A stretch of 64,000 nucleotides of DNA from Vishniacozyma victoriae (taxonomy: Eukaryota > Basidiomycota > Tremellomycetes > Tremellales > Bulleribasidiaceae). The DNA is taken from assembly GCA_017654735.1 (NCBI GenBank), contig JADPYG010000088.1, positions 3,596,001-3,660,000 on the forward strand, written 5' to 3'. The notes beneath the pieces were generated by a model, which was not told the origin of the DNA, searched no databases, and saw only the letters and a program-made list of their open reading frames with translations. The translations under genes and the position numbers were made by a program. Shown in pieces: positions 6,509-64,000 of this stretch (position 1 is the stretch's first letter; each line of letters opens with the position of its first letter).

Positions 6509-7979
<1,471 letters not shown>

Positions 7980-9866: not shown

Positions 9867-12800
9867 CTACTCCACAGACTCCTTTTTCACAGGCATATCC
9901 AGGACAGACCCTGTAGTTCCCGTAGTCCCACTACTTCCACTCAACCGATGTCCGCCAGTCAACTGCGGACTAATGACCGAACCACCAGTAGTTTGAGCAG
10001 TCAAGAAACTCATTCCAGTATTCTGAGAACTCAACATACTAGCCCCAGTCAACTGAGGCGACAAAACCCCCTCAGTATCACCCGTCAACATCTTTTTCAA
10101 TGTCTTTTCAGATTTCTTAGCCCTGACCCTTTCCACTTCCTCATGTCCACCTGTTTTCTTCAATTTCCTCCCTTGGACGAAATTTCCTAATTCCGATTGA
10201 AACTCGTCTCCACCTCGTTCTGCTAGTTCTTTTTCCCTCACTTTACGTTGTGCTTCAATAGCTCGTAATCGTTGGTTTGGATCTGCTTCTTTGGTTCGGA
10301 TCTCCATCAATAGATTCGGCATACCACCAGTATCGGTACTTGGACTAGGTGGTCTGAACCCTTTTGATCCAATCCTCTGACCGGTTCCTCGTTGACTGAC
10401 GAATCCTTGGACAGCACCAAACATCTCGGCAGCATCCTTGATATCATTCTTGAGATCCGCAGCGAGTTTCCTCTGATGTGACAATAGACCTTGTTCCTCT
10501 TGGACTCTCTTTAATTCAGAAGCCCAGGTACTTCTCCAAGAAGGATCGGCTAAAGCGACATCTCGAGCGAATTGATCTACGAAATTTGTAGCCTTTTCAA
10601 GAGTGGCCTTGATGGAATTGATCTGTTTGGCGGAAGGGGTGACGAATCGTTTATAAGCGTCTTCACGGGCATTATCGATCGTATCGGATATTTCCTCGAC
10701 TGCTTGGATAGCTTCTTGGCACTGAGTCTCCATCTTCGCTTTGGAGTTATCTAGAAGTGCCCGACTACCTCCCATTTTCGTTTTCACCACTTCCCGCATC
10801 GCCGAATTCTGAGTACGGAGTTTGGCAAATGATTCTTTCGTTTCAGCGAGGAAATCAACATGGACTTGACGCATGACTGCTAGGTCGCGACGGAGGGAAG
10901 TGACTTCATCGTATTGCGCTTGTAGCTCGACCTTTTTCTCGGATGACAGAGGTGCGGTACTGAGTTCCGAGATAGAGTTGGAAGGTGATAGGCGAAGTGG
11001 TTCGGGTTTAGGTAATCGAGCCATGGATGTCGCCATGCTCAGTGAAGGCGAGACGGTAAGGTGGGACGGGGGAGCCATGGACATCCGGCGAGTATGGTCG
11101 AGGGAAGACTTCATTTCCTTGATCTCCTGCATCAGACCGCCGACAGTCAGGTCAAAGTGCTGTTTGACCTGATCAAGAGCTACTCATCAGCCACTGTCAC
11201 TATGTGCAAAGGATAAACTCACGCTCGATATTGAGACTCAATACAGTCCCCTCTGTCAAATCATCAATATCCTCCAGCTCGAACTGAACCCCAGTCCTGG
11301 GATCTCGAATATAAACCTCTGGAAAATCTTCTTTTCCAGGATCATACTCGAATCGCTCCATGAAACTAAGTTTGATATTCGATAAACTCGTGGGCAGCTC
11401 TATTGTAGACTTCTTGACCTGTCTACCAATCTGCAGGAATACCGAGAGAGAAGTAGGTGGAGCAGGAGCGGCGGGTGTGGGTGTAGCATCGGGAGTAGCA
11501 ATGACTCGCATGGAGGAATCATGATCAGGTTGAGGGGACGGTGTGCGTACCGACGAGGGAGAAGCTGATCGACCGGAAGATGAACCATTTGCACCGAGAT
11601 GTGATCGGGATGATTCCCCCTCGATTACCCTGCTCAAGTTCATTTCGGGTAAAGGAGGCATTGGTGGGATATTCGCACGTCGCATAGGTCGTTGTGGTGA
11701 ACTGAGTTTTTTAGAAGATGGCGAACCAGGTAACATTTTACTGAAATTGTAACTAGAGAATCGTCTTGAAGCTCTTCGTTCTAATGGATCCTGTCGAGAT
11801 AGCGCAGCGAGCGTTGATCTTGTTTCGGCCGGTACTTCTGCCGGTTCGACAGAAGAGAGTGGAGGAGTAACAACATCGCTTGTATCGATCATAATCGATT
11901 CGGAAGGTAGATTGAGGATGGGTAACAAGGGGGCTGATCGTGGTGGAGTTTCTGTTCCGCGATCCTGTTCATCTTCCGCTAGTGTCGATATTCGCCTTGG
12001 CGGTGTGTGTCCACCAGGAGATCGAATAGGTGAATTACCCGTGGTGATATCCGAATCAATCGAGAACCGTGAAATAGGTCTTGGATTTCCGAAACTATCT
12101 CGACTGAATCGATCAGGTCGTGGTGGAGTAGGTTTAACAGCTGCCGCAGGTGCCAGGGTGGTGGGTACCGAATTCGATGTGACTGGAACAGGTGGATCTG
12201 TCAATTGATGTCGAACCACTCCCTCGGGTAATGAAATCGTACTACTAGTCGACATTGGTGGTGTCGCCGTTCCCACAGATCCATCTCTATTGGACGTAGC
12301 ACTAGCCCTCCTTTCCCTAGGTCCTTCAGGTGGTCTCATCCTAGCTGGTCGGAATGCGTCGGGCGGAGCAGGCCTGGATGGGCCGTTACCACTAATGTTC
12401 CTTTGAGCTAGCATTGAACTACTAGGCATCCGAGGCAGACCGGCGGGTGGAGCATTTGGGCTAACGCTACGTCCTGTTAATTTGGCATTGGCTTCCTCGA
12501 CTGGATCTAGTCTTCGCTGAGGTATCGGAATTTGTATTTGTGGTATCGATTGCGATTGTGACTGAGATTGTGATTGTTGCTGTTGTTGATGTTCCTGTTC
12601 TTGTTCCTGCCTCTCTGCAATCATTCGTTTATAAGCCGCCTGCTTCTGTTTCAGGCCGTTTAGGAGCGAAAAGATGATAGTTCGGATATTGGGTAGGTAG
12701 ATATTGAGTGTTTCCTGCGATGGATCCTCTGCTAAAGCTTGCTCCAGACAGACACGCAGGTCTCTCGGTATAGAGTCTAGTTCCCTATCATCTCAGCTTG

Positions 12801-13203
12801 TTCTTTGGTACCGCGGGAAGGGCTCACTTGGTACTCAATCCAACTTTCCTAAACGATTCCACGCAGATCTCGAATCCGTTTCCCAATTTCACATAAATAT
12901 CAGAGACCTGCCATCAGCCCCCTTTCTCTTAGTCTCACAACAGTGGGATAGACGTACATCCTCCTCTCCAATCTGCCCTTGTGACCACTGTTCCATCGCC
13001 TGTAACATCTGTTTCGTCAAAACTAGTAATCTCGTAATTGATGAATCTATTATCGTAGGCTATATGTCAGCTGTGTCCGACATAGGGAGGAGGGACCAGC
13101 TTACGCCAGCTCTAGAGGATGAGGAAGATACAGTTCGAGGAGCGGTACTTGTATACTCCTGCGGCCTAACCGGAATAGCGGTGGGGACTGGCGGGCGGGA
13201 CAT
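9867..13203 (-). CDS. BUD6: Bud6/Aip3 actin-interacting polarity factor
   Basis: Stimulates formin-driven actin nucleation at sites of polarised growth. The N-terminal exons hold the conserved helical block (RLLVLTKQMLQAMEQWS..., later DSIPRDLRVCLEQAL and YLPNIRTIIFSLLNGLKQKQ). A long disordered centre of about 300 residues follows, with a Gln/Ser repeat and many Ser/Pro stretches. Then comes the AIP3 C-terminal region: a ubiquitin-like segment starting SLSVFLQIGRQVKKSTIELP with FMERFEYDPGKEDFP, and a long coiled coil. The last 70 residues repeat a Thr-Gly motif (LTGASMLSSQNTGMSFLTAQTTGG). Start MSRPPVPT at 13203 is the first ATG of the open N-terminal exon. Confidence 0.9.
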
Positions 13204-13488
13204 CGTGCTTGTTACTCTTCCACTTGTATTCTATTGAATAGAGTTGAGTTCACAGCAAGTTTGACACCCTCTCTGGAGCCCTCTAATGCGTTACTGAGAA
13301 CTTGATCGAGCCGGAAAGTGTTGTACAAGGTGATTGAATGACTTTAGACGTTGTCCTTCACCTTCAAGACGCGACTTTTGGCCCCGCAACCTTCTGAATC
13401 AACTTTCATTCAAAAATCTAATATTTGTCCATTGTATATCCTATTGTCAAGCCATATAGACTACTTAATCAGCAGGGGAGCAGGGAAA
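13204..13488. other. short divergent promoter, BUD6 / POP4
   Basis: 285 bases between opposite-facing start codons. No specific regulatory motif was recognised. Confidence 0.4.
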
Positions 13489-14706
13489 ATGCAGGCTGGA
13501 TCTACTTCGAACTCGAGAGGCAGTTCAGTCGCTTCCGGGGCTAAAGGAACGGCGACACCGGTCCAGAATATCGATATTTACAGACCACTCGCTAATCAGG
13601 TTACGGTAGGTCATATCATGTAGGTTGATAGCATGGCTGACGGAAAGAAAACCCTGCAATCCCTCTTACCAACCACAAAACCACCAACAATCACATCCCT
13701 CCTATCCCTTCGTCAATCAGCCTACACCCAGCGAATACAGAATAAAGCCTTAAATTTCAACTCATCCATCCAAACCAACTCAGACGAGGCGAAAGCGGTC
13801 AAGGGTCGGAAACGGAATCAAGGTGATTCCGGGGCTTTGGAGGTAGCTAGAAAGGCAGCGAATGATAAAGAGCAGGAAAGGCGGAATTTGGAAATACCAA
13901 GTCGGAGGAAGAGGCAGAGAGCAGTTTTAGATGCTGGGCAGGAGATTGAGTACGTCCCTTGCCTCTTCACTTGGGATGAACTGATGAGAAGGTATGAGAG
14001 GGTGAAACCATTACATCACCTCCATACTATCTATATTGCCAATCTCCTCAAACTACCTCCATTACCCCCGATAGGACAACAGCAGCCTTCGATCTCATCT
14101 TCGACCGACAGTCTTCACTCCAAGTTATCGAAAGCGGATTTCACAGGTGCGGAACTCACCATCACGACCGCCAAGAATCCCTCCTTGAATTGTATAAGTG
14201 GCTTGGTGATTGAAGAGACAGCATCTACCTTCCGCCTAGTCACGCCAAAATCACTGGTTAAAGTGATACCTAAAAATGGAACTCAATTCGAAATTTCTTT
14301 CCCCGCTTATGCTCCTCCGTCCCCCTCTCCACCCGGAGACGAGGAGGGATATCAATCAACAATCATCCCAATCCCTCCGACTATCATGGAACAGCACTTG
14401 AATACAACACCTCGAATATCAATACCACTCTTAGGGACGAATTTCGGGTTCCGATCTGGAGATAGAGCTGGACGTAAATTCCGACCAACACAGGGCGGGG
14501 GAGGAGGGAGTGGATGGGGTGAAGAATGGGTCAAAGGGGAGTGGAGTGAGGTGATGGATTTACTTGGAGAGGGCTCGATGGGGGAAGATAACAAAGGGAA
14601 GAAGTATCAAGGTTGGAAAGAGAGGAATGGGGAACCGATCAAGAAGAGAAGAGGGAAATCCAGGAGGAAAGATCCACCTGCTTTCGGCTCTCTGGAGATT
14701 CAATGA
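13489..14706 (+). CDS. POP4: RNase P/MRP subunit Pop4 (Rpp29)
   Basis: Protein subunit shared by RNase P and RNase MRP, for tRNA 5' and rRNA processing. Exon 1 (13489-13605) joins exon 2 at 13648 across a 42 nt intron with a GCTGAC branch site. The Rpp29 Sm-like barrel spans about residues 190-260: LHSKLSKADFTGAELTI, then GLVIEETASTFRLVTPK, then KVIPKNGTQFEI, the usual strand pattern. A basic linker precedes it. The C-terminal extension, Gly-rich then Lys/Arg-rich, is longer than in yeast Pop4 and includes the block KKRRGKSRRK, probably for RNA contact or nuclear import. Confidence 0.9.
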
Positions 14707-14825
14707 GCACAGGACATTGATATCCCCTGTAGTTCTATATCAGATGGTATATACATATCATCCTTTGTACAATAATGCGATGCTACTTTGAATGAAATGA
14801 TGAGACTATACAACCTTTCTGAGAA

Positions 14826-17800
14826 TCAGACCTCGTACTTCCCAATACACTCCCTGATAACATTCAATTGCTGTCCCAGACTAGCCTTTACACCCACTTT
14901 CCCATCCACCTCCTCTTTACCCACTTTACCAAGTGCAACGTTTATGAGGTAAACGAAATCAGCATGAGCTTGTACCGGTAAAGATGATCTGCGTCGGGCA
15001 TCGAGTTTATCTTTGAATGTCTTGAAGAATTCCGCCGAGACTTCTTGTGCTCGGGAGACGACTGATGCTGGGACACCTGCCATATGTGCCACGTCTACTT
15101 GTCAGCTTCTGCGGCAATATCTTGAGACGAATGACTTACGAGTACCATGAGACGATTCTGCTACTCCCGCAATCAACTTGTAGAGGAATACAACCTATTC
15201 ATCAGCTTTGCCTTCGACGTGAAAAGAGGAGCTCACAGCCATCTTCTCATCATCAACATGAGTCTGCATATGCATTCTCCTGATATTTGGGTGATATGCG
15301 AAATCATCCGTAAGTGATCCGTAGTGCGTCTACCTGTCAGCTTTGGCCGGCCATCGGGCCAATTGGGCTTACGGCAAAGAATCCAAGGGGTAGGGTGTGG
15401 GTAGCAACGTGATGTAGGACAGCTCCTGCTATTGCCATTCCGTCGTAGGTTGATGTTCCTCTTCCGAGTTCTAAAAATCAGCTGCGATTAAGAGATTTGG
15501 TGAATGTAGCTTACCATCGAGGATGATCAATGATCGAGGTCCGGCCTCTTTTAAGATCTTTGATGTCTGCCCGTCAGCTCCACCCAGTCTCAAAAGCAGT
15601 TGCTAGCTCACCTCATCAAGTTCAACCTTGAATGTACTAGCATTCGAGAACATATCTACCATCAGCCACTGTCATTCGCTCGAGGTGAAAGAGGACCCAC
15701 TGTCATAAGCCCCCATCCTAGTTTGGATCCTATCGATAGGGCTCAGCCTCGCCGATTCCGCAGGCACATAACATCCCAACTGAGCCAGAATGACCCCCGC
15801 AGCCGTCATCCTCAACAGCGTAGATTTACCAGCCATATTCGGTCCAGTCAACAATACCTGCCTAGCAGCATTGCCACCCAGCTGGACATTATTCGAAATA
15901 AACGATGATCTCAAACACATGGATGGATGTCTCAATTCAGTGAAATCGATAAATGCTTCGGGGGTGTCGATGAATGTAGGTCGACATTTCGGCTCGTCCA
16001 TCCCTGTTGATGCTTTTGCTAGTGATACCAGACAATCGAGCTCGGCAATGACTCGAACAGCTTTCAACCACTCTGTGCGATCTTTATCGAATTCAGCGAG
16101 GAGGTTACTGAAGAATGCCCTCTTGGCGACGTAATGGCGTTCTCGAGCTTCTTGAAGTGCTCGGATCTTGGGCGCTGTTTCCGGTGTGATCCACCTTGCG
16201 ATTTTCTGTCCAATGTCAGCGTGTCTTCTACTTCACATAGAGGTAAGGTGGACGTACGCCAGTAGCAGACTGCTTGGACCAATTACTCGGGACCTTGGTC
16301 TTGACAGGAACTTCAATATTGTAGATATCCTTCCCACCCTGAGCGGAATGCCAGAACTTGGCTTCGGGGCAACTGCTATTAGCTAGGTCTACAGTCTGAG
16401 CTCAGACGTACTTGATATCCTTCCTGGCTTTTCTCAGTAAAGAGTCTAGCGCAGCCTCAAGCTCTTGAACCTCAGCAGATCGTCTATCGCATTCCGCATC
16501 AGCCCCATCGTTGGGTAGGATTTCGATTGTCTTTTCTACCCTGTCAGCTTCAAGCGCATCAAGCGAAGGCGTGGCTTACCAGACTCGGGCGAATGATACA
16601 TAGAGTCGATATGTTGGACCAAAGGCTCGAGGTCCGGCGCAGACCTTAGGAGACCAGCTACAGAGGGCGATGCGAATCCCTCAGCAGCATCAAGGAGCTC
16701 AGTGATCATATGGCTCATCCGCTTGAAACTCTGGCCAAGTCAGCCTTCACTTTTATGTAAGAGATTGTGACCTACATCCATGACTTTGAGGAAGTCACTC
16801 TGCTTGACCGAGCCAGCGTGTATACGCGATACGAGACGCTTGAACATCAGCTTAGGCTCATAACAAGAATCCGGTAGCTTACCTCGAGATCTGGAACTTT
16901 GCTTGCCCAGTTGTTGAATGCCCCGCCAAAAGTTGGGTTGGCCATGATGTCGTCTACGGCATCGAGACTTTCATCAGCTCACATTACTCCCAAACATGAC
17001 ATGAAGCGCACCGATCGTTGATAGCTTTTGCTTCTCGCAGTGGACATTCCAGCCAGATCCTGAATAATCGCTTCCCTATGTTGTCAGCTCTACCCAGGCA
17101 TCGAGGTTTCGCCAGCTTACCGAAAGGCGTAGCGCAGTTCTGCAGCAACTCCAGAAGAGTTCCCTCAGTCCCACCCTCATTATTCACAAGCACCTCCATA
17201 TGTCCAAGAGTCAGACCATCAAGTATCAACCGATTACCCTCTCTGATGGGATCGTAAATATTAAAGTTTCGCTGAGTCAGGAGATCCTGTCGTAAATTGA
17301 GGGCTTGGAGATACGACATTAATCCACCCAAAGCTTCCATCGCAGTTGGTTGATCTTGTAATGATACTATCTCGGCGGGTATGTCGGAGCCGAATGTAGT
17401 TGATAATTCTGATGTCGTTCGTTCGGAGTCCCAGAATTCTTTACCATCTTTGAACGTTTGGCGGATACAGGAGATTGGTAGGACACGACGGAGCATTCGT
17501 TCAGTTGCTATCGTGAGATTACCCTGACTGTCAGTTGATACTTCGCATAGGGGCGTGCAACTCACCTTGGCACAAATAAGCTCTTTTGGTCGGATTTGGC
17601 TAAACAAAGTCTCAAGTCGACTCCGGATGATATCATCCTGGAAATACGACAACTGGAATTCTCCAGTTGAGGCATCAACAATACAAACTCCAAATGTAGA
17701 TGGTTCATTCGGACCAGGCGAAAGCTCCTTGATAGAAACACAGTGGTTGGCGTCGTGAGTTGAGAGGTAATGTCCATCGACGATCGTACCATTCGTAAAG

Positions 17801-19372: not shown

Positions 19373-19944
19373 TTTGCTGGTAGTACTTGGCTCAGCTTCG
19401 ATGTGACAGGCTACTCAGCGTCGTTGGCTAGCGTAGGGATGTTGCTCGTCGGCCGACAGGTTACTTGGCTTCTACGTCAGGCTGATCTAGCTACTCTACT
19501 ACTCGTACTTACTTCGGTTGACTTTCCTTGACCTCCACTTGCGCGGGTCGCGACATGAGATCAGAGGGTCGCGTAAGATGACACGTCATTCTCTGTTAAA
19601 TCTGTTAAATGTTTACAAAGATGAGATGACGGTAGTTGACGCGACTTTCCTTTCCTGAACGCCCCTCCCTGTATCCTCAATTTTGGTCACGGGACCGTCA
19701 CGTCTATTCAAAGGGGGAAGAGGGTAAAGAACGCGTCGTTAGTGATGTATACAATATGTGTTTTGCTCATGTTTAATGTCCTGACGCGTCCCATAGTCAT
19801 GTAGTCGCGTCAACTAAGGGTCCGAAACTCCCGAACTCAAAGGGATATATAGTCCAACCCATGTTCATCATTTCTCTTCTTCACTTGTCATTCTTACATC
19901 TTCGACTTCTTCTCTTCCCTTCACACTACCTTTCATCCACTATC
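19373..19944. promoter_or_regulatory. shared MSH6/RNR2 promoter with MCB-like boxes
   Basis: Perfect MluI cell-cycle boxes (ACGCGT) lie at 19731-19736 and 19784-19789. Half-sites CGCGT or ACGCG lie near 19570-19574, 19639-19643 and 19806-19810. In yeasts the MBF factor binds this sequence and drives G1/S transcription of RNR and MSH genes, the two genes flanking this 572-base gap. Confidence 0.75.
19846..19851 (+). promoter_or_regulatory. TATA box of RNR2
   Basis: TATATA lies 94 bases before the RNR2 start codon, downstream of the ACGCGT boxes. Confidence 0.5.
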
Positions 19945-21332
19945 ATGTCTATCGTAGAGACCCCTTCCAAGGCTACGGCCAATGCTCTATCCACCATGGA
20001 TCTAAACACACCCCGAAAGGAGTCTGCTCAGCCAACCCTACTTGAAAAGTTAAAGGCTTCTGCCGATGTTGCCAAGCCCGTTGTCGTTGAGGAGACCAAC
20101 AAGGAGCAAGAGCTTGAAGAGTACCGAAAGCGATTCGTTGGTGATCTAGATTGTGAAGAGAAGGATGAGCCTCTATTACAAGAGAGCAACTCTCGATTCG
20201 TCCTCTTCCCCATCAAGTACAGAGAGGTATGTCTATTTGTTCATCGTATCGTACATGACTGACATACCAGATCTGGCAGATGTACAAGCAGGCTCAGGCT
20301 TCGTGAGTTTTCGTACTACCTTCAAGCTTGGACGCGTACTGATCATCAGATTCTGGACTTCTGAGGAGATCAATCTCGCACCCGATCTTCACGATTGGGA
20401 CAACAAGCTCAATGACAATGAGCGATACTTTATCGAGCACGTCCTCGCTTTCTTCGCTGCTGTAAGTAACTTTTGCGCATCGTCTCGGTCGAGCTAATAT
20501 CAGTCTGATGGTATCGTCAACGAGAACCTTGTCGAGCGATTCTCTTCCGAGGTCCAGGCCGCCGAGGCCAAGTGTTTCTACGGTTTCCAGATCATGATGT
20601 AAGCCATCTTCCTCACTGTGCAAGACTGCGCTGACCGACAGGGAGAACATCCATTCTGAGACCTACTCTCTCCTCATCGACACCTACATCAAGGACCCCG
20701 CACGTCGTACATACCTTTTCGAGGCCATGGACACTATCCCCGCCATCCAAAAGAAGGCCAACTGGGCACTCAAGTGGATCTCTGACGACAAGTCTACATT
20801 CGCCGAACGACTCATCGCCTTTGCCGCCGTCGAGGGTATCTTCTTCTCTGGTTCTTTCGCATCGATCTTCTGGCTCAAGAAGCGAGGACTCATGCCCGGA
20901 TTAACATTCTCCAACGAGCTCATTTCTCGAGACGAAGGTCTACACACCGATTTCGCATGTCTCCTCTTTACCCACCTCCGACGACGACCCAGCCCGGACA
21001 CTGTCGAGCGAATCATTCGAGAAGCAGTCAAGATCGAGCAAGAGTTCCTTACGGATGCTCTACCATGCTCTTTAATCGGAATGAACGCCAAACTCATGTG
21101 TCAATACATTGAATTCGTTGCCGACCGTCTACTCGTCGCACTAGGAAACGACAAGGTTTGGAACGTATCCAACCCATTCGATTTCATGGAAATGATCTCG
21201 CTACAGGGTAAAGCCAACTTCTTCGAGTCTCGAGTTTCCGCCTACTCGAAATCCGGTGTCAACCAGTCTGTCGGTGCCGAGACGGATCACAATGCCGTCA
21301 AGAAGGGTTTCTCCCTAGACGAGGACTTCTAG
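19945..21332 (+). CDS. RNR2: ribonucleotide reductase small subunit
   Basis: R2 subunit that supplies the tyrosyl radical for dNTP synthesis. Five exons give about 400 residues. The di-iron and radical regions are readable: PDLHDW, the Glu of NENLVERF, the radical Tyr in KCFYGFQ, the Glu and His of [14 protein letters not shown], and [10 protein letters not shown]. The C-terminal heptapeptide FSLDEDF matches the tail that docks on the large subunit. The N-terminal 60 residues are polar and probably regulatory. Codon choice is strongly biased, as in highly expressed genes. Confidence 0.97.
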
Positions 21333-51736: not shown

Positions 51737-53168
51737 ATGGTCGCTTCTCACTTTACTCTATCCAACGGATCAAAGATCCCATCCATCGGTCTCGGTACCG
51801 TGAGTCCTTCTCTGATTATGTGATGAAAGAGAAGCCATCGCTGACTTACTTCTCTTCCTTCTTGCAATCTCTCACTCTACCCACCATGCTTTGCTACATC
51901 CTACCGCATCATTACATTCACTCCGATTTATCGGCTCCACTCGGTTCTCACGCCCTTTTCTCCCCATCTGCCTACCGATGAACCTCCGATCGGACTCCGA
52001 TTAAAACAAATAGTGGCAATCCCAACCCGGAGAGGTCGCCAAGGCTGTCGAGCACGCCATCAAGTCTGGTTACCGACACATTGAGTAAGTTACCCCTCGA
52101 AATCGAGTTTAGAGAGTAATCGCTGACTGTCAGCTGCGCCTGGGCTTACGGAAACGAGGCCGAGGTTGGACAGGGAATCAAGGCTTCCGGTGTCCCCCGA
52201 GAGGAGCTTTGGATCACCTCCAAGCTTTTCGAGCTCCACCATCACCCCGAACACGTCGAGTTGGCCGTCAAGGACACCTTGAAGAACTTGGGTCTCGAGT
52301 ACCTTGACCTTTACCTCATGCACTGGAACGTAGGTCTTTTCTTGCGTCTTTACAAAAGGAAATCAACTAATTCATAGATCAACTTGAAGGTCGATGCTCC
52401 CGAAGGTGTTCTCCCCACTCAGGAACACACCATCAAGGGCAAGTCCGGAAAGAAGCTCCTCGATGTCGAGCTTTCCAACGATGTCTCCCCCACCTGGGCC
52501 GAGATGGAGAAGCTCGTTAACAAGGGCCTCGTCAAGAACATTGGTATCTCCAACTTCAACATCCGACGAACTAGGGAGCTCCTCAAGTTCGCCAAGATCA
52601 AGCCTGTCGCTAGTACGTTGACCCATCTCCTTGCGCAGCTACAAAGCTAACTTTGTAGACCAGGTCGAGCTATCCATCCAGTGCCCTCAGCCCGAGCTAG
52701 TCGCTTACCTCGAGAAGAACGACATCCTTCCCCAGGCATACTCTCCCCTTGGAGGTACCGACGGACAGAAGCTCCGAGAGGACCCCACCATCGTCAAGAT
52801 TGCCGAGAAGCACGGTGTTCACGGAGCTACCATCCTCATCTCTTGGTTGATCAAGCGAGGTATCTGTGTCTTGCCCAAGTCTGTTACCCCATCTCGAATC
52901 GAGGCCAACGCCAAGAGTATGTCCCTCCCATTATTTCAAGAATGTCGTACTGACCACCAGCCGTTGACCTTTCCGAGGAGGAGTTCCAGTCTATTGAGGA
53001 TTTGGCCAAGTCCATCCCCGCCAACCGAGTTTGTGACCAGTCTGACAGTGCGTTCCTTTTCATTTGTATAGTGTTCAACACTGACAATCAGGCTTCGAGC
53101 CCGACTACGATATCTACGAGGATTCGCATCCGGAAAACAACAATGCTGCTCAGCTCAACAAGGATTAG
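51737..53168 (+). CDS. aldo-keto reductase, Gcy1-like
   Basis: NADP-dependent carbonyl reductase of the AKR superfamily, probably reducing glyceraldehyde-type or xylose-type substrates. Seven exons, about 330 residues. Starts [21 protein letters not shown]; the catalytic tetrad is seen in DCAWAYGNE (Asp, Tyr), ITSKL (Lys) and YLMHWN (His). Further motifs are [37 protein letters not shown] and [14 protein letters not shown], the cofactor loop. The first intron is unusually long (about 215 nt). Strong codon bias and a clear TATA box suggest high expression. Confidence 0.93.
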
Positions 53169-53638
53169 ACATTGTAGTCGTATGTAGAGAAGAACACTGT
53201 GCATAGGTAAAAGCTGGAACAGATTGTAACATGAATCTTAGCTGCAAACATAAGTTTGTTGCGACGCAGTCCGGCTGCTCATTACCCTGGATATAGTAGC
53301 TGTGATGCTCGTGAGGTTCCTCTTGGTCATCAGCTGGTCCAAATGACCAGAGGCCTTGAAACAAGGACTTGGGAACTCAAGATGAGCAGCACGGACGTCA
53401 GTGGATGATGGTCCGAGCGTTGAACGATCCTCGACGCCCTTTCTGTGAGACACCCCCACCTTTATCTTTTACTCTCCTTTCATACCTCGTCGACAATTCT
53501 TTTGTCCTCAGCTCCCCCAACAAGAACAAGCACCGGCATCACTCAACCAGTTCCGAATCACACGCCATCGTTCTTCAGTCCAGGACTTGTAGTCACGATC
53601 CAGGTATTCCCATTCTTCGATATTTCCTCCGCTTCAGC
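53169..53638. other. boundary region between core genes and the recombinase/histone segment
   Basis: 470 bases between the reductase stop and the first recombinase-like start. A long open frame runs upstream of that start from 53369 but has no coding character. I could not see terminal repeats. Confidence 0.35.
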
Positions 53639-55690
53639 ATGCCGCCTCGTCGACCAGCTGTTTATCAGCCAATCAGAGCCATTCAAGTACCCCCCGATGC
53701 GGGTCTTCTCGCCAATACCCAGCGGATTCGAGTTCCTCTATCACTCAATGATCCCAGCTTGAGTGAACAGGCCAAGCGAGCGCTCAGGCAAGTTGATGAG
53801 TGCCTGGAGACCATAGATGGATTCATGATGGGCGGTATAGTGAGGCACAATGTCACAGAAACGATAGGGATAGACGTTCCAGCTTGGGATTGTGACTTTA
53901 TGGAGGAGGTTCTCAGGTACCTGGCCGAAAGGCCTTTACAACATCGACCAGGGAAATTAATGGCACAGGACACACTCCGCAACTATGGAAACGAGATACT
54001 TGCCGCCAACAGCAAGGTCGCCCACAACATAATCCCTCGATCTGAACGCTTACGCATTCATGCACTCATCGAGAACCTGATCAAAGAATACTCTCTAGAG
54101 ATTTTCGGCTATGATCGCGCCCAGATATCACATGGAACACTCAATGCCCTGGTGACGGCACTACCAATGTCGGGACTGGGGTGGGATCGATGCATGTCAC
54201 AGCTGTTATTTCAAAGCATCGCTTGTTCAACAGGGGTCAGGCCCAGCAGTCTCACTCGCTCTCGTGCTATAAGCATCCTCGATCGACCCTCATACAACAA
54301 TCTGAAGCTTGGGGGCGATGGCGCTCGACTTCGGGATTTCCATCTATGGTACGAACGATCTTCCGAGTCCGAGACGCCTCAGATATTCGGTTGGTTTCTC
54401 CCCAGAGGCGGCAAAACCCGTCAATCGCGGGGGCTCTCCTACTCCTTAGCCCCAGTGCCGATGTTGGGTCTCAGTCCCGCCGCGCTGATCTTGGTCTTCG
54501 CAGGACATCAGGGAGTTTTCGGTACCGAGGGTATTTCGCATTTGTTCTCGGGCCTTAAAGGTGACATAATCTTCCCTTCTGAACAGTGAGTGACGACCCC
54601 CGTACCCAGGTTTGACGTTAGTCTGGACCTCCCTCTCTTCCGATCTGCCCACAATCCTACCCACAATGTCAGCTCAACCAGTATCACTCGTACGATCCAT
54701 CGATTATGCGACATTCAAGGTATCGATGGTCTAGTCGATTGTCGATGCTACCGCAGTCTAGTAGCTGCATATGTTTATGCTAAACGTGAGTGCTGGGGAG
54801 TCTTCGAGACTGACGGGCGCAGATGGGCCGGAAAGTACCACCCTCGTCTTGGGACATGGGGATCAAGCTGCCGCGGTGACGCGACGCTACATCGGTAAAT
54901 CTACGTGAGTCAAAAGTCCCCTTCTTTGCTGACTCCAGACCGATCGACATCCAAAAAGCCATCTTCCAAGATCAGGGTAGCGATATCCAATCCCTAGAGG
55001 TCAATCGTCGTAATGCTCGGCCAAGGCTTGGTGCTCCACGTAAAATAGCGCCAGAAACCCTTCAGACCATCATAGAGGGTGAATATCGTAAGTTGGTAGA
55101 GCAAATACAGAGCTGAGCGGCACGTAGTTCAGAGCCTTTTGAAGGAACAAGAATCAATCAAGCGAGTACTAGCGTCACAGAAGTCGAACCCGGACCCGCA
55201 GCTACTCAAGAAAAGAAAAGCGTTGTCGAACAAGTGGTTCGATGCCCTTACAAAATCCATCCGAGACAAGTTGAGGCAAGAAAAGGCTCAACATCTAGAA
55301 GATTTGGCGACTGGACAGATACCGACCGATAATGCTGGGGAAGAAGATATCATCACTCTTGAACGGGTGGGTATAGTAATTCAAGCAACACAAGCTCGTT
55401 TGTTGACGGCATAGATCTTCATGGAAGAATCAGACTCGCAATCCCGCCCATCTTTCACAGTTGTGGACGCAACTTCGATCGAAATACCGACAGACGAAGA
55501 CGAGAAGGCGATCATCAGAGTACTGTTCGGGGATACAGACGGGCTGTTTCAAGCCTACCACCTTCTAAGCAAGACTGGGGCTCTTTCAAAGCGAAAAGAA
55601 CCTATCAGTGGGACTATGGTTAAGAGATTCCTTCTCGCTGCAGCAGAGGCGGACAAGGCGGCGGTAAGTGGTGAAGAGGCTGATGCTTGA
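53639..55690 (+). CDS. tyrosine-recombinase-like protein (recombinase A)
   Basis: About 590 residues over six to seven exons, starting MPPRRPAVYQPIRAIQV. An alpha-helical N-terminal part resembles a core-binding domain. The catalytic part shows box I Arg in SIACSTGVRPSSLT and a later block TIHRLCDIQ. At the box II position it has DCRCYRS, where His is expected before the Arg. The end motif LGHGDQAAAVTRRYIG carries a His and a candidate nucleophilic Tyr. A basic coiled-coil tail follows, with an acidic end. Similar in motif order to Crypton-type and other fungal recombinases, but no exact family. The intron after 54585 and the last exon are unsure; the C-terminus may extend to about 55810. Confidence 0.6.
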
Positions 55691-55920
55691 TATTGGGAGA
55701 ATGAGAAAAGGTCATGGAATTATGTGCATCACACCTCATGACAGGAAAAGGAGAGAGCAACAACAGACGCCAGCAGGATCCATCTAAACATCAGCTCTGC
55801 GTGAGCGACGTATCATCGCAACGACTGACTCATGAACTACCGATACTATCCCTAAGGAATGGTATCCTCGTCAGAGTTGGTCGGAACCCCCACTGATGGC
55901 TCAGCTCTCAGACCATCACA

Positions 55921-56472
55921 TCAATTGACTAACTCACAGATAGACTTGATCCTTCGGACGAGGTCGAAATCGGCAGGCTTGATAGTTGATCGGTGGTGAG
56001 AGACGGCACTAACAATCGCGCATTCCATCTGAACATTACCAAGGTGCTCCAACATCAAAGATACGGATCTGGCAACTCACTGTCTTGGTGATCATATCTT
56101 CCGCGGCCTCTTGCATTGCGAGCAAAGCAGACTTTTGCCACCTATATTGACCAAGCTGCGCAGAGAGTTCTCTTACTACCCTCTCAAAGGTCTTTGCTCG
56201 GATACAGAGCTTCTTACTGACCTGCATCAGCTTACGCTCAAGACGATTGAATAGGTTGCTGACCTCTGCTTCTGCTGCTTCCTTACTTCACTATACCAGC
56301 CCTTGCTCTTAGCCTTCTTCTTGGGCTTCGATGACCTCCTTCCCTTGTACCTCATGCCGGATTTCCTGCCTACTGATCCGGTTCGTTTGGTATTTTTGGA
56401 CGAGCCGATGGTGGGTTTGATATCTGGTTTGACGTCCGCAGCGGGAAAAGTAGAGAGTCCGGTTCTGACCAT
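55921..56472 (-). CDS. divergent histone H3-family protein, CENP-A-like
   Basis: Three exons give 144 residues. After MVRTGLS, a Lys/Arg/Ser-rich tail of 58 residues has no canonical H3 lysine motifs. The histone fold aligns along its length: KKLCIRAKTFERVVREL matches the alpha1 region, QYRWQKSALLAMQEAAEDM matches alpha2 with the Trp of CENP-A (RWQ) where H3 has RFQ, and STIKPADFDLVRRIKSI matches alpha3. Loop 1 is slightly shorter than in H3. Exon joins keep frame: WYSE to VSKKL via GTAAGG, and ITKT to MECAIV. It could be a centromeric H3, a derived nucleosome variant or a non-nucleosomal H3-fold protein. It lies between two recombinase-like genes. Confidence 0.7.
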
Positions 56473-56989
56473 GATAAATGAGCTGATGAGAAAACTGAGA
56501 TATAAGAAGGAGAAGTACAAGAAGAGGGAAAGACGACGCGCATTCTCATTATATATATCTTCGGGTGAGAGCGTTACAGCTGCGAGCGTTACATTACCTC
56601 ATTACCTAGAAAAGAGAAATGATGTATATCAAAGGAGCTTGCCATATGTAGTAAGATTGCAGCGTTAGCGTGTGTCGAGATCCAGGTCCAAGGATACCTT
56701 TTGGAAACACACATGTGTGTTGCCACACAATCGTGACATTATGAATCTTAAAAGGCGTTACTCAAGGGCAAATCCCGTTGATCACGGGTTGCAGTGCTCC
56801 AGACAGTCCAGAGCTTAGAAGTCAAATACCCATGCACTTGAGATGTTCCTGTTGAACTGTGGACGTGTCCAACACTGGTCACGACCTCTGGGATATTTGA
56901 ACACGGCGCATACTGTTGTGTGGCATGCATGGGGTGATTTCGCGCCTCCTCTTGAAATCGATGAATGAAAACCTCATCCTTGCATACCA
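56473..56989. other. intergenic inside the recombinase/histone segment
   Basis: About 500 bases from the CENP-A-like start to the next minus-strand stop. No gene, box or repeat was recognised. Confidence 0.35.
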
Positions 56990-57811
56990 CTACACAGGCT
57001 TTCTACTCCAGCAGGGAATTTCCTTCAAGCCAAATGACTCCAACATTTCTACATTAAACCCATTGGCGTGGTTCACCATCCCTACAAAGCCTTCTACAAA
57101 TCCAGCGGTTGATTCGAGACACATCTGGCCCATTCCTCGATATGGTTTTCCACCATAGTATAGATATTTGATGTTGTAGTGTTTGTCCTTGAGCTTCTGG
57201 AGCATCGATCGTTGACTTCGCATGAGAGACAGTGGAGTCAATATGGTGTCTTTCACGCGCGCCTCCTCCAATCCCGCAGATCCAGCGTCGTCGAAGATAA
57301 ATACCAGAACTCCTCCATTAACATCCTTACTGCCGACCAACCCCAAAGCCCATATGTGGCCCAAATCCGAGTTCCTTACCCCAGATCGGGAGGAGAATAT
57401 CCCTACCCTTATCCTTCGCTCGTCCAATGGCCAACTGAGAAAAGCGGACGCAGAAGTCGCGTATCGTTGGTCCCCTTCCCTGATGCGGTGATTTCGCTTC
57501 ACCTCTCGCCCTTTCTTTGTGTTGGTCATGGTGTCAATGATCCATGGATATACAGCAACATCGCTCCCGGTCTTGAGAGATCGCATCAAGCGTTGATGTA
57601 CTAGCAGATTCGAGGTTTCGACGCTGAAAGGGATCGAATTATCATCTAGTTCGTCGAAGGATATGTTATCTTGGTGAACTGGCGCTACTGGTTTAGATTG
57701 GTGGGGCAAATATATCGATTTGGATGGTTTTGGTTGATTGGGTTGTCGAGCGGGGATCTCGATAGCGGGAGGATCTGAGGTTGGATTGCGGAGACTTGTC
57801 CCCCTTGACAT
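56990..57811 (-). CDS. unknown protein with a possible Ulp1-like peptidase layout
   Basis: One exon of 273 residues from MSRGTSLRNP; a 5' UTR intron ending just before 57853 is likely. The first 60 residues are disordered, Pro-rich. The ordered rest has RIRVGIFSSRSG, then LGHIWALGLVG, GGVLVFIFDDAG and MGQMCLESTAGFVEGFVGMV. A His (152), Asp (174) and Cys (231) in that order, with the Cys heading a helix, recall C48 (Ulp1-like) cysteine peptidases. The spacing is not exact and no family is certain. Ulp1-like genes are common cargo of eukaryotic transposons. An upstream hydrophobic exon (57895-58000) could extend the N-terminus but has no ATG. Confidence 0.5.
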   Translation of the reverse strand: MSRGTSLRNPTSDPPAIEIPARQPNQPKPSKSIYLPHQSKPVAPVHQDNISFDELDDNSIPFSVETSNLLVHQRLMRSLKTGSDVAVYPWIIDTMTNTKKGREVKRNHRIREGDQRYATSASAFLSWPLDERRIRVGIFSSRSGVRNSDLGHIWALGLVGSKDVNGGVLVFIFDDAGSAGLEEARVKDTILTPLSLMRSQRSMLQKLKDKHYNIKYLYYGGKPYRGMGQMCLESTAGFVEGFVGMVNHANGFNVEMLESFGLKEIPCWSRKPV

Positions 57812-58291
57812 GATGTAGGGGCGGAGGAGCGCCGGTCTAACTCGATCCTTCAAACTACACTCAGCTAGTCTATAGTATTGATCGTGATCTAGTCTTACGG
57901 CAGGAATAAGAGAAAGAACAACACCACCAAAAGGGGATACTCGGTGGCAAACGCTCCGATCAGAGCTTTTCGTTGTCGTGAATAGTGCTGAGAGAGTCGA
58001 GATTTATGGAGCTGAGTTTCAAGTGGATGCTGTATTGGGCTGGGGCGTAGGTGATCTGACTGATAGAGGTAGACTGAAGGAAGGGAAGGATGTTTGCTTT
58101 CAGCCTTCCTCGACGCGTCGTGCACGGACACACACACACACGCACACACACATTCTTCCTTCATTCCTCGACGCGTTCTGTTTTCCCTTCCTTCCTTCTC
58201 TCACTTTCTTTCTTTACTTCCTCACTCATAAATAAAGATTGTATAAGAGACAGTCCTGTTGAACAAAGTCAAATAATCACATATTACAAGA
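57812..58291. promoter_or_regulatory. bidirectional gap with two ACGCGT boxes
   Basis: 480 bases between divergent starts. ACGCGT lies at 58113-58118 and 58171-58176, on either side of a CA repeat. The same box lies ahead of the H3 variant gene and the RNR2/MSH6 pair. Confidence 0.5.
58128..58152. repeat. (CA)n microsatellite
   Basis: About 25 bases of CA dinucleotide with one G interruption. Confidence 0.9.
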
Positions 58292-58997
58292 ATGCCGCCT
58301 TCTCAACGACAAATCGACACCTTGTTCGCCAAAATGTCACCACTCCTAATACTGTGCCCTTACGAGGGTGACGTTGACCTTGCCATGAAAGATCAGAAGT
58401 CAATCTCAGGTGATTAGGACCAGTGAGATATATGATGGAGCTGACTTCAATAGAGCAAATGATGTATTGGGTGCAGAGGGTTCAGGAGCTGAGACAGCAA
58501 CCTGGCGGGCAAGAAGCGTATGAGCTGTATCACACACTATCGGGTGACATGGAGGAAGAAATAAGGCTTCAAGGTGAGTACTACATAAGGCGAGGAACAC
58601 CAATCGCTGACCCTATAGCGAGTCTAAATAAAGGTCAAAAGGGGATTGAGCAAGTACGCAATGGTAAGACGAATTCAAGAAAAGGGACTGAGATGTCAGA
58701 ATCGGAGAACCAGGTACCACCCGAGCGAGATGAGCAAGACATCGATCGTTTGTTGGAGGTGGAAGTAGACGGAGAAGTGCAGTCTCCAGTAGTGAGGCGA
58801 GGGAAGACCACGCCAGGTACCAAGGAAAAGACAGCTGCGGCTGGAAAAAGTAAGCGAGGGTAATGAGCTCTGCTAAGACGACAGAAAACAAGGCCAAGCC
58901 TGGAGCAAGAGCTCCTATCAATATATCGGACAGGCAAAAGGAGATAGGTCAGAGATTCAAGACACAAATGAAGGAGAGTAAAGCAAGGGAATGGTGA
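58292..58997 (+). CDS. charged protein of unknown function
   Basis: Four exons give about 190 residues: MPPSQRQIDTLFAKMSP, then a helical YWVQRVQELRQQPGG with EAYELYHTLSGDMEEEIRLQ, a Glu/Lys-rich linker, and a basic C-terminus with a final helix DRQKEIGQRFKTQMKES. All junctions (at about 58398, 58573 and 58849) are GT..AG and keep the frame. No domain recognised. Its place between two H3-family genes makes a chromatin or DNA-linked role worth testing, but this is inference from position only. Confidence 0.5.
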
Positions 58998-59414
58998 GCG
59001 TGTAGATGTGATTTAGTAGAAGAACATGAATAGATGAATCGTCGCTGCATCAACAACTTCTGCTCACTTGCTGCGATTGTCCATCAATCTTGTAGCGGTC
59101 ATGATGGGTTACCAGAGTCCCATGATGATCAGAATCGAGTGCCGCGGATCAAGAGGCTGTAGAGAAGGGGGGAGGTCCAGCTGGGAGAGGTTCCCAGCTG
59201 GCTCACGGTAGAAGTGAGGTGATTGCACGACATGTTATGTGACATACGGGATTCTACAATCTTTAATCATACAGTTTACAGCGTCTCTCTCGATGATTAT
59301 ACAACCTCTCAGTCCTTTCGATCTACAGCCACATCTGATCCCTCCTCTCAGCTTGTCCTCTGAGCTCATCAGCGACATGCCATTACTATCTAAAATGGAC
59401 TGACCTTTGACCTC
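58998..59414. other. convergent 3' gap
   Basis: About 420 bases between two stop codons. Contains short imperfect inverted stretches (for example CCAGCTGGGAGAGGTTCCCAGCTGG near 59178), possibly a terminator-like hairpin. No gene seen. Confidence 0.35.
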
Positions 59415-60036
59415 CTACTTCTTCGTCACGGAATCGATCTTTCCCCCGATATAGTCAAGGTTTAGGACATGTTGAATATCCCTCTGCTGGATCGTGATGC
59501 GCTTGGCATGGACAGCTGACGCTTGTACTTTTTGGAACTGGTCTGTCAACACAATTCAATTTCGATTCACCTACAAAGATAACTAGATGGGCCTCTGCCG
59601 CCTCCTGGAGTGCCCCAATAGCAGCCGCCTGAAATCTGATGTTTGTAGTATGTCCATGCTGGTCGGACTGTTTTGAGAACTCCTGGGCGATCTCTCGAAC
59701 TAGGCGCTGAAACGGGAGCTTTCGGATTAACAACTCGGTACTAACCGTCAGCCCAACCCAGAGAAATGAGGGAAAGGAAGTGGAGAGCAGAGAAGAACAG
59801 CAGACTCACGACTTTTGATATCTAACTATTTCTCTCATAGCCAAAGTTCCAGCCTTGAGTTTCCTCGGTCTCTTGACCCCACCTACTGTTCCTCTGGCTG
59901 CTTTGGTAGCGACTACTGGTTAGCAGATTACAGTTCAACTAGATCTTCTCTACTCACGATGCTTTCGAGGGGCTTTGCCACCAGTGTTGAACCTAGCCTT
60001 GCTTTTTGTTGAGGGTCCAATTCTAGTGCGAGCCAT
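59415..60036 (-). CDS. histone H3 variant with altered tail and long loop 1
   Basis: Four exons, 160 residues (H3 has 136). The tail starts [20 protein letters not shown], so the residue at K4 is Arg and the K9/S10 pair is Phe/Asn. K14, K18 and K23 equivalents are kept (GGKAPRK, ATKAAR), K27/S28 is Gly/Thr (ARGT), and K36 is kept (GGVKRP). The core is strongly H3: [20 protein letters not shown] then [10 protein letters not shown]. Loop 1 is nine residues longer than H3 ([13 protein letters not shown] before RFQ), as in CENP-A proteins. Alpha2 is [13 protein letters not shown]. Alpha3 is [19 protein letters not shown], and the final ARRIRGERA is replaced by an unrelated tail. Joins keep frame, for example IFV to DQFQK. 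Confidence 0.82.
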
Positions 60037-60628
60037 TGTGGATGTTGACAATGATGTGATGTAGGTTGTGGTCTCGCGAAAGACAATGAATGACAACTAA
60101 TGACAAAGGTTGTGGAAGAAGACAATGTACAACAGAGAGAAGAGAAATGAAATTGTCGACGCGTCAAGCGCGACTGACGCACGGACATTTACCCGGTTCT
60201 ACAATGTTAGCCCGTTCTAGCATTTGGCACTCTCGGACCATGCATGAATATAGTCGTGTTGCGATATGGAGGATCATGATAATGCCATAGAGCACTTTAT
60301 GTGAGCTTCCGAGAAGATTTCGATACTTGAAAATGTGACTTCTAATGCCGCAGAAGCGATGAGATCGATTTTTGTTCCATCCACTTATATCCGGCGCGTC
60401 GCTTCTCTTCCCTAGTCAGTGAGGTGAGTTACCGTCTGACGATTTTGACATTAGAGCTTTCAGCAAGACCGAGCCAGATGAAAAAGGTCCTCTCGATACG
60501 AGTCTGTTACATGCTACCAGATTCAGTCGTCTTAGATATAGGTAGAGAGAGAAAAGAGAGAGTAAGAGAAAGAAAGAGGGACAGGTCCACCAAATCGTCC
60601 GCAAAATGACATTCCCTTCCCAACATGA
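60037..60628. promoter_or_regulatory. H3 variant promoter and recombinase C 3' end
   Basis: An ACGCGT box lies at 60159-60164, about 120 bases before the H3 variant start, next to further CGCG/GCGC steps. An S-phase control box is what a histone gene would need. No gene was found in the rest. Confidence 0.5.
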
Positions 60629-63600
60629 TTATTGTTCTTTGCCGGTCTTCTTTTTGGGCTTGGGCTTCGCCTTCTTCCTAACCGGCTCGACAGCCTTAAC
60701 AGAATCGCTCAGATCGTCTGCTGTAGGGGATATATGCGGTTCGTTACCGGCAGCCCGTTTCTGCAATAGGTATCAGCCAAGTATAGAGATGGTGAAAGAG
60801 CAAAGCTCACTTTTCCTTTTCCAACGACAGCTTTCGCCTTGTTCCTCGCAGCGAGCACTCCCTCGGGTACAAAGAACTCGCCTGTCTTGGCATCGGCAAT
60901 CTTGTCTATGTCGGAATTCTTCAATGGAACCAAGGTGTCGAGAGGTTTCAGCAAGCCGACCATCAAGTAGCTACCAGCGAAGGGGCTGAAGTGGTGCACC
61001 AGTATCAGGTGTTGAACCAGATCCAGTAGCGATGATATGTGTAGCTTCGCCCTGCGGCATGCTGGATCAGGACAAGAGAGAATCCCATCATGTAGACAAG
61101 GAGAGTTCTCTGTGTCGGTCAGCAAGCGTAAGGATATAACAAAAGGGTGAAATACTTACTGACGGCTTCCCTTTGTCTGTTGGTTCTGAGGTCTTTTGCG
61201 GCTAATGAGCCTTGACCTTTGGCAATGATGGGGGCTACTTTATCAGTCACCAATCTCTTCGCCGATGAACTCACCACCGAGGTACTTGCGCAGTAAATTC
61301 AAATGAGTCTTTAAGCAAGACAATGAGTGGTTGCGGAGTGATTCGGAATCATCATAAGGTCTCATCGCTTCGGTGTAGCTTTCCCCCTTGTTGTGAACGC
61401 AGAGTATGCAGTGACCCAATTGAGAAACTCGTCCATAGTCGTGCAACAAGCAGTATTTTCGATCGGACGGCTCTGATCTCGGCGTTCCAGGAAGGATGTG
61501 AAGGGGTATGTCGGCGTCGTCTCGTGTGCCATAGCCATTGACCATTTTGTCCGATAGCGCCAAAAATTGATGATGTTCAGCGAATCCTGCTCTTTCAAGC
61601 TGCTTCGGCATCGTCAAGTATGTCGCTTCATTTTGGTCCCACCTAGCGTACGATGGCAAGAAGTCTCGATTTGTCCATTTCTCAGAGGTGTCAAGTCTGG
61701 TCGTCGTAGGTAGAACGACATCGTGTTCGAGCAAGAGATGACTCGATGCCTGCCCGTAGTCGAAGAACGTATAGCTTGGCTGGCAGAGATTGCATTCGAG
61801 TTCGAAGGATTGTCCATGGCAGGTTGTGTAGATGTATCTTGCTTGATATGCCAGAGAGAGGTCCTTCTTCATCCTCCTAGTATCTCCTTTTCGTGCTCGT
61901 GCAATGGCAAGAGTAGTAGTCCTCGGGAGCTGCTTGGCGAGCAACTGTCCAGTAACCGTCATTGCTTTCAGCTCCATTGCCTTGTGGATGTGGTTTCGTA
62001 AAGCTGTCGAGTCCCGCTTATCGACGCAGTCCGTAATGGGCTGATCGTGCGCGGGGCAGATCCCTTCGACCGGAAAGTGGCCTGCGCGGTAGCCTCGCCA
62101 TTCCAAGGTAAGGGGGGGTAACGACAGAGCCAGATCAATTAATTGCAAGCGAGTTTCTGGAACAGACGGTTGATCGCCCGAGAATAGCACAAGGCGCATT
62201 TCCGCTAGATGGTCCATAGCTTTCGTCTGTATAGATTCCTCCGAGTCGGAGGACGCAGCGGGTGATGGAGTGGCGTTGACGGTGCTTGGATTATCGATTG
62301 CTTCGGTCGTTCTCACTCTTGTCGCATTCGTGTGATCCTGATTCTCGGTTGCTGTATTCGGAGCAGGGTCTAGCAAGGTATCGACGACGAGAATAGAGCT
62401 GTCTGAGCTGTCCGCAGTTGAGGTCGCGTTGGCAGCTAATTGAATCGAGCCTTCGAGCTGGGTAGGTGACTTGAGTGACGGTGAAGACAAGTTCTCGGTC
62501 AACTGATGACGGTCAAAGTAATCACAGACCGCCCCTAGCGTATCCAGCCCTTGTGATATGAGAATCGTCTCCAAATGGTCGGCTTTGTATCCATAAGACT
62601 CTCCGTCTTGTACTACGGTATAAAGATTACGAGCACCATCGTCGGTTTGTATGGCATGGTTGATTGCTTCATCAAGCTCTTCTTCATTAAAAGTGGACTG
62701 ATCTTTGTCGGTTTCGCCAGAGTATACGTCGACGTATCCCAGATCCTCGTCATCATCATCGTGATCGCAATCGAGTTGGTCGGTCTTTGAATTTGATGAC
62801 ATGGAGGTGTCCGGGGACTTAGATTCTTCGTACAAGTCGCAATCGTCATGGTATTTGGTCCACTTGACCAGAAATTGCGAATACCGATGCCACGCCCGGT
62901 TGATGGTCTTCTTGTCTTCTGCTGGGATCTCCTGCATGGATCCATACTGATCAACCAAGTCGGCAACCAGATCCAGTGCTCGTGTTTTAGAATCAAGGAC
63001 TTTGATCAGCAATGGCCAGACTAGGATTACGTACCCTCAGATTCAGCAGCTGCCCGACGGATTGCTGTCACCGGGGGAAGCACTGGAAGGCCGACTGCGG
63101 TCACGGGGCGGATCACACCAGGATGATTAGAAATGAGAGTAGGAGTGTCGGCATCAAGACCGAATACTGCGTCTCCTGCAGAGATGGGCCTATTCAATCA
63201 GTCTCCAACCGCAACAACGGACGTACAAGACTCCTTGCAGATATCGACGGGTCATGCCGGTCATACTATGGCCCAGTGTATAGGCTATCTCTTGTAGAGA
63301 GTGACCTATGAAGTCAGCTTGACCTGCCATGCTTTTTCTGACTCACCAGCTGCCAGCAGCATCACGGCGCCGGTCCTTCGGTAATCATGAGTTCTAATCC
63401 TGGTCGGAATTCGAGCGATCCTACATGCATTTCCTAGTGTTTCCCAAAAAGACCTAACAGTCCAGTAGTTGGGTGAATCCGGTTTACTCTGTGAAGACCG
63501 ACATACTGGATGAGAAGCGTGAGATGGAAGAATCTTGAAATTACGAGTCGCTTCTCGACCAAGTATCGCCGGATCATATAGCTCCTTGACGGTGTAGGGT

Positions 63601-64000
63601 AAAGCGCCATCGAGGGAAGCAAGAAGGAGGAACCAGACAACAGGACATCTCCAAAGCTTCTCTTGAGGAAGTAGAGTATGTTCACCTCTCTGCGTCGTTC
63701 TAGTCTTGTGTCTTGCGGCTTTGTAGGTGAGGGCGATGTGGTTGAGAGGGCCATTCTGGTTTCGGCTCACGTTGATTACAAAGTCACAGTACTGAACCGT
63801 CCTCGCGGTTTCGACGCTTTCCTTGTCGCTCGGTAGATGAGACGAAAGCCGGGTAGCAGTCGATAGTTCCACGGCTTGTAGAAAGAGGAATTGCCATCGC
63901 TGAAAGGTGTATTTGCCTTTCCACCTCAAGTCGAAAGCAGATTTAGCTACCGCCTCGAATGCCTCTGTGCTGATGATCGTTGCTTCTACCGGATAATCGA
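60629..64000 (-). CDS. tyrosine recombinase with zinc-finger-like region (recombinase C), 5' end outside window
   Basis: At least 980 residues, open at the right edge. The recombinase part has box I Arg in VELSTATRLSSHLP, box II THDYRRTG (His-x-x-Arg) and the end motif LGHSMTGMTRRYLQG with His and the candidate Tyr. Frame-keeping joins link it to GVLPISAGDAVFG, then the 590-residue exon at 61243-63012. That exon holds an acidic region and several Cys/His clusters that look like C2H2 fingers: CHGQSFELECNLC..HLLLEH, CLLHDYGRVSQLGHCILC..HSLSCLKTH, and in the next exon CPDPACRRAKLHISSLLDLVQHLILVHH. The C-terminus is Lys-rich (RKKAKPKPKKKTGKEQ). It faces recombinase A. Likely transposon-encoded or domesticated. 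Confidence 0.7.

Follow-up and report, generated by a model that had tools for sequence, protein, structure and literature searches.

We identified in the basidiomycete Vishniacozyma victoriae a gene cluster which is probably an integrated tyrosine recombinase (YR) element of 11,757 bp. The element would have entered an aldo/keto reductase (AKR) gene in its last exon and brought a substitute 3' end for that gene. Its cargo would comprise two orphan genes and two histone H3 genes, the histones being putatively of an unsilencing (H3v2) and a CENP-A-like (H3v1) kind. The gene content, the repeats around the cluster, their polarity and the residue changes in the histones were read directly from the DNA, and from them we infer integration and mobility.

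The analysis covered a window of 64,000 nucleotides (C11:3596001-3660000), the sequence adjoining it on the right, and 11.58 Mb of genome sequence in 17 contigs. The chaperonin profile PF00118 matched six loci in this sequence (one on C1, one on C12 and four on C11; counts are lower bounds), compared with the nine expected per genome, and the sequence searched may therefore amount to about two thirds of the genome. A preliminary description of the window had reported convergent YR genes around two H3-family genes, and this arrangement was borne out: YR_A and YR_C face each other across 4.9 kb, and the two H3 genes between them, on the same strand, have intact models which score above the Pfam Histone cut-off of 26.4 bits (64.6 bits for H3v1 and 96.8 bits for H3v2). 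It had also proposed one mobile or accessory locus with histone cargo. This idea is now partly supported by structure, in that the cluster resembles a bounded, element-like unit, with a 127-bp direct repeat at its ends and a counterpart of the same layout on contig C13; one supposed member, a Ulp1-like protein, found no support. Neither of the two patterns named there as contradicting the idea was encountered in this one genome sequence.

Table 1. Features of the cluster (positions are those of the window; L010 is a segment past its right-hand end)
Feature	Position	Strand	Remarks
AKR (aldo/keto reductase) gene	52000..53168 (start approximate)	+	3' end duplicated
Left copy of direct repeat, attL-like	53112..53236	+	last 18 codons, stop codon and 3' UTR of intact AKR gene
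YR_A, DUF3435-like putative tyrosine recombinase	53639..55690	+	6 exons, 618 aa
H3v1, diverged H3-family histone, CENP-A-like features	55921..56472	-	3 exons, 150 aa
273-aa orphan	56990..57811	-	single copy, no family match
Two ACGCGT sites	58113..58176		divergent promoter of the two orphans
Charged orphan	about 58292..58997	+	about 193 aa, exons joined manually
H3v2, H3 paralogue	59415..60036	-	4 exons
ACGCGT site	60159..60164		123 bp before H3v2 ATG
YR_C, DUF3435-like putative recombinase	64439 (start, past window end, L010) down to about 60.63 kb (60629)	-	at least 1138 aa, C-terminal zinc-finger-like stretches
Right copy of direct repeat, attR-like	64869-64994, past window end (L010:869-994)	+	bare AKR 3'-end fragment

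Terminal repeats had been suggested as a feature to look for, and the one that was found is made of the end of the left-hand AKR gene (joined exon pieces against PF00248, E 1.8e-36). Its two copies are identical at 91 of 127 positions (72%, E 9e-12; E 4.4e-9 in a self-comparison of 94 kb) and lie 11,757 bp apart from start to start (unit 53112 to 64868). One copy ends the intact gene, and the other is a bare fragment situated 430 bp upstream of YR_C. The similarity begins sharply inside the last AKR exon, the sequences that precede the two copies being unrelated to the eye; when five pieces of the AKR gene were compared with the right-hand side, the last one matched (E 2e-7) and the other four reached E 0.08 at best. 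Joining the left flank to the right copy in silico restored an in-frame AKR end (25 residues read). The 19 codons compared differ at six synonymous and three non-synonymous sites, and this mainly synonymous divergence suggests that both copies evolved as working gene ends during most of the time since they parted, that of the element presumably in other hosts.

We propose that site-specific recombination in the last AKR exon would have brought the element in. It would have supplied a replacement for the 3' end of the gene, the original end being displaced beyond the element, where it persists as a fragment, and owing to the substitute end the host AKR gene would have stayed whole. YR_C, whose 5' end lies beside the fragment, is the likely integrase in this scheme, and YR_A, at the opposite end, would be a second, more diverged recombinase.

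A second locus of this kind was found on contig C13. A search of the genome sequence with the DUF3435 profile gave a single locus (near C13:192865-194057, with exons of 20.8 and 20.1 bits, under the cut-off of 25.8), the Cys/His-rich reading frame of which extends to 196510. This locus lies between direct copies (C13:190596-190925 and 200300-200608; 330 bp, 68%) of the terminal part (last 63 codons, stop codon and 3' UTR) of a gene for a zinc-binding dehydrogenase (PF00107). Three upstream pieces of the dehydrogenase gene were tested and matched beside the right copy only. Of 64 codons, 35 differ synonymously and nine non-synonymously. The polarity is common to both loci: the bare fragment is at the 5' side of the YR gene, which on C11 is YR_C, and the opposite end is occupied by the intact gene, in convergent orientation. 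Duplicated gene ends, sharply delimited within an exon, were found twice and each time around a recombinase gene, a pattern which we read as the signature of integration into gene 3' ends with a replacement end. Both YR loci found are bracketed in this way, a proportion that refers to those found and not to all; the DUF3435 search missed YR_A and YR_C themselves, and there may therefore be further YR loci which lack such repeats. The C13 unit (C13:190596-200608; positions 5596-15608 of segments L039 and L040) holds one other large frame (L040:2266-3732), which has no Pfam match. It gave no histone match, which indicates that histones are not a fixed cargo.

The mainly synonymous differences between the AKR copies would also fit two working paralogues, and it is possible, if somewhat unlikely, that the right-hand fragment is the relic of a second AKR gene produced by tandem duplication, the YR and histone genes between being old, fast-evolving chromosomal genes. 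The composition of the cluster, the inside of which resembles the flanks, is native, YR_A has homologues in several other protein clusters, and solo DUF3435 genes are reported as common (PMC12134995), all of which would agree with such a history. Against it, no more than the terminal 18 codons are left, with no significant trace of an earlier exon and with a sharp in-exon border, and the pattern recurs at the C13 YR locus with an unrelated gene.

DUF3435 (PF11917) is the family of the Starship “captain” recombinases. In Pfam profile searches YR_A matched it over residues 178-502 (E 3.7e-4, 20 bits) and the catalytic exon of YR_C matched it with E 0.0019 (17.7 bits), both under the curated cut-off of 25.8 bits. 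The YR label of the two genes, which rests on this weak similarity below the cut-off, is thus a putative one. For full-length YR_C the Pfam matches did not include DUF3435 and consisted of Phage_integrase (E 0.083) and one family at chance level. By eye, the motifs R, HDYR, GH and RRY were recognised in YR_C, and R, RCYR (at box II) and RRY in YR_A; the catalytic set given for DUF3435 is Arg, (His/Tyr)xxArg and Tyr (PMC12506042). The introns of YR_A measure 34-48 nt. The last intron of the YR_C model loses the frame, which makes the final stretch of the protein and its last exon join uncertain. A Cys/His-containing stretch of YR_C is identical at 11 of 30 positions to that of the C13 DUF3435 gene (E 2e-4).

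The first exon of YR_A has relatives in five other metagenomic protein clusters (77, 64, 57, 46 and 32% identity), and the first catalytic Arg is retained in five of the six aligned sequences, that of the window included. When its predicted fold (of low confidence, pLDDT 49.5) was compared with PDB structures, Ndc80 came first and Cre or its derivative Tre occupied ranks 2-14 (best E 0.046), with nothing reaching E 0.001. For YR_C no homologue was obtained at E<=0.01 among 7990 candidates scored, a null result which is uninformative because the length of the query (1138 aa) barred exon-sized proteins. Scans of viral and prokaryotic contigs found no relative. Within the genome sequence YR_A matched only itself, as did YR_C apart from one match at E 0.51; with the cluster in single copy there is no sign of recent transposition. 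Since YR_A and YR_C look unlike by eye beyond the superfamily motifs, and an outer pair of 12-mers exists at 53172/65518, two adjacent insertions might be envisaged, one with YR_A and the other with YR_C, the histones belonging to one or to neither. We consider this rather improbable: a single repeat pair brackets both YR genes, and no pair ends between them.

To judge from its sequence, H3v2 is derived from canonical H3. Its tail retains K14, K18, K23 and K36 and has lost two lysines (K9 to F, K27 to G), S10 is replaced by N, L126 and R129 are altered, and loop 1 is nine residues longer than in H3. A tandem acceptor allows the tail to read KHLATK or KHLVATK. Six residues taken as DNA contacts of H3 are all retained (6/6, P 0.06). 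Three ordinary H3 loci occur elsewhere in the genome sequence, and in a small tree H3v2 was placed with the H3 gene of C14 (support 83). By eye, the first intron of H3v2 is at the canonical H3 site and the second is one codon off. In the best models, H3v1 and H3v2 share two intron sites that have no counterpart in the canonical genes, one within codon 57 and the other between residues 103 and 104. The common introns favour reading H3v1 and H3v2 as sister copies; the tree, which splits H3v2 from H3v1, speaks against it.

H3v1 is most likely a CENP-A-like or otherwise specialised H3. Like the three CENP-As compared, it has Trp at H3 position 84, and in the same tree it groups with them (support 92). 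Its first 11 matches in PDB were CENP-A or H3/CENP-A chimaeras (53.5-48.1 bits; best H3, 46.8). Loop 1 of CENP-A is at least two residues longer than that of H3; in H3v1 it is one residue shorter, so that H3v1 shows the tryptophan and not the long loop. In the fold its identity is 37% with canonical H3 and 34-39% with the three CENP-As, whereas the latter share 60-67% among themselves. The six presumed DNA-contact residues are retained here as well (6/6, P 0.0018). One metagenomic relative (P0001) covers 46% of the query with 87% identity; a comparison with it for constraint on the tail gave differences in 9 of 70 codon-reads for coding and in 3 of 42 for untranslated sequence (Fisher P 0.53). 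The first intron of H3v1 has a weak donor (GTCAGC).

With Trp84, the tree grouping, the PDB matches and the fact that no other CENP-A candidate occurs in the genome sequence searched, one could take H3v1 for the ordinary, fast-evolving CENP-A of the species and the cluster for its normal locus. This we regard as quite improbable, considering the shortened loop 1 and an identity of 34-39% where CENP-As share 60-67% with each other; moreover, the search for a rival candidate covered what looks like about two thirds of the genome.

Under the reading of an integrated element, we also infer expression of the cluster and a function in chromatin. The interior of the cluster is enriched in ACGCGT, which we take to be the yeast MluI cell-cycle box (3 sites, 0.39 expected, P 0.007, a post hoc value); if so, S-phase expression is likely. 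In the window as a whole the motif is at chance level (7 sites, 6.6 expected). The ten sites in 94 kb comprise three at a ribonucleotide reductase (RNR) gene, one at 47.9 kb, three in the cluster and three further right. Those at the RNR gene (19731-20337) lie upstream of its small-subunit coding sequence (PF00268). At other histone loci, three sites were found on C12, and none at the H3 genes of C11 and C14. No ACGCG was found within 500 bases upstream of YR_A or YR_C.

H3v1 and H3v2 would thus most likely be made in S phase and incorporated into nucleosomes, and H3v2, being without K9 and K27, would render chromatin refractory to heterochromatic silencing. A Pre-SET (Clr4-type) match on C6 makes K9 methylation plausible in the host. 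A bolder reading, which we hold to be unlikely, is that of a selfish element supplied with nucleosomes of its own. One H3, insensitive to methylation at K9 and K27, would keep it unsilenced, and a CENP-A-like H3 could serve its segregation or seed kinetochore chromatin. Were it true, the element would be a living analogue of recombinase elements which may have yielded centromere parts, as the Crypton origin of yeast Cbf2/Ndc10 suggests.

The two orphan genes gave few clues. The 273-aa protein had been described as possibly Ulp1-like, a label that found no support: the protein has no Pfam match at E<=10 and no Cys at the position where the catalytic motif of Ulp1/C48 peptidases requires one. 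Further database searches returned one unrelated PDB sequence match (E 1.4) and one NCBIfam match at chance level (E 0.14), and the fold predicted from the single sequence was useless (pLDDT 34.7). The second orphan had been noted as an unknown charged protein; it has no Pfam family match and one weak similarity in the genome (C12:1043834, E 0.096).

We think it fairly probable that the locus works like an integrative element which replaces gene ends. The closest parallel is e14 at icd of E. coli, where a metabolic gene is split near its 3' end, a substitute end is supplied and the old end is left as a fragment (163 bp; PMC6379469). The cluster likewise has an intact AKR gene and a fragment beyond the unit (127 bp), and the arrangement is met again on C13. 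However, e14 is a bacterial prophage, whereas the present locus is fungal, with DUF3435-like YR genes, histone genes and much diverged copies of the repeat.

Starships end in short direct repeats and sometimes in inverted repeats. As in these elements, YR_C reads inward from near a border, 430 bp from the repeat, and it is the first gene if the repeat is the border; in the Starship Sanctuary the captain is about 350 bp from the edge (PMC12506042). Starships have been reported in the tremellomycete Tremella fuciformis (PMC13066641), and their length is given as 15 kb and up (PMC12134995). In contrast, the present unit measures 11.8 kb, has YR genes at both ends, a gene 3'-end duplication as borders and histone cargo, and by its length and its scores below the DUF3435 cut-off it falls outside the Starships. 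Cryptons are also fungal YR elements with direct-repeat ends; yeast Cbf2/Ndc10 derived from one, and some CryptonS encode a C48 peptidase (PMC3212892). The cluster differs from them in its two YR genes and its histones, and neither YR_A nor YR_C matched the GCR1_C domain at E<=5. A fungal H3 paralogue which enters nucleosomes is known in Candida, where H3V-CTG acts through residues 31 and 32 (PMC6703697). H3v2 differs from it in the loss of K9 and K27 and the gain of nine residues in loop 1, and H3v1 is far more diverged.

Histone H3 genes are a very unexpected cargo for a mobile element. No title on a histone-carrying mobile element was found in the literature searched on Starships, Cryptons and tyrosine recombinases, which is not proof of absence in print. 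If the proposed integration is correct, DUF3435-type recombinases in a fungus can use the 3' ends of protein genes as attachment sites, replacing the end, and gene-end duplication provides a simple signature for locating element borders. It would also mean that histone variants can travel as cargo of a mobile element, one of them without both silencing lysines. The influence of mobile DNA on the chromatin it occupies, and the ways in which CENP-A-like histones and recombinases come together, would then be open to direct test.

The repeat itself was discovered through the contexts of 12-mers common to the two outer intergenic stretches. These stretches share two; 12 nt or more were shared in 2 of 200 shuffles, but in 93 cases when 2000 pairs of real segments were drawn at random. 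The 12-mer TGTGCATAGGTA was rejected as a stand-alone target-site duplication, as it has four copies in the genome sequence, the other two in unrelated-looking contexts; it is meaningful only as part of the 127-bp repeat, which contains an exact 12-mer and an exact 11-mer. The longest exact blocks between copies are 12 nt (C11) and 10 nt (C13), and with copies 72% and 68% identical no clear recombination core is apparent. Inverted terminal repeats were likewise rejected, the longest inverted match (10 nt) being equalled in 76 of 200 shuffles.

A survey of 132 kb for repeat pairs (non-self, more than 500 bp apart, E<=1e-3) gave six, of which four were direct and two inverted. The two direct pairs besides those around the YR loci lie in and beside a stretch coding for ubiquitin, and their spacing is in neither case 5-20 kb. 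Window positions 6516-7887 hold direct repeats in and adjoining what appears to be ubiquitin coding sequence. One inverted pair (77459-77555 and 82798-82895, past the window end in segments L011-L012) consists of related coding stretches, 86% identical over 98 bp. By eye, the frames at 69.3-69.7 kb and 82.2-82.6 kb, also past the window end, look like members of one unknown protein family.
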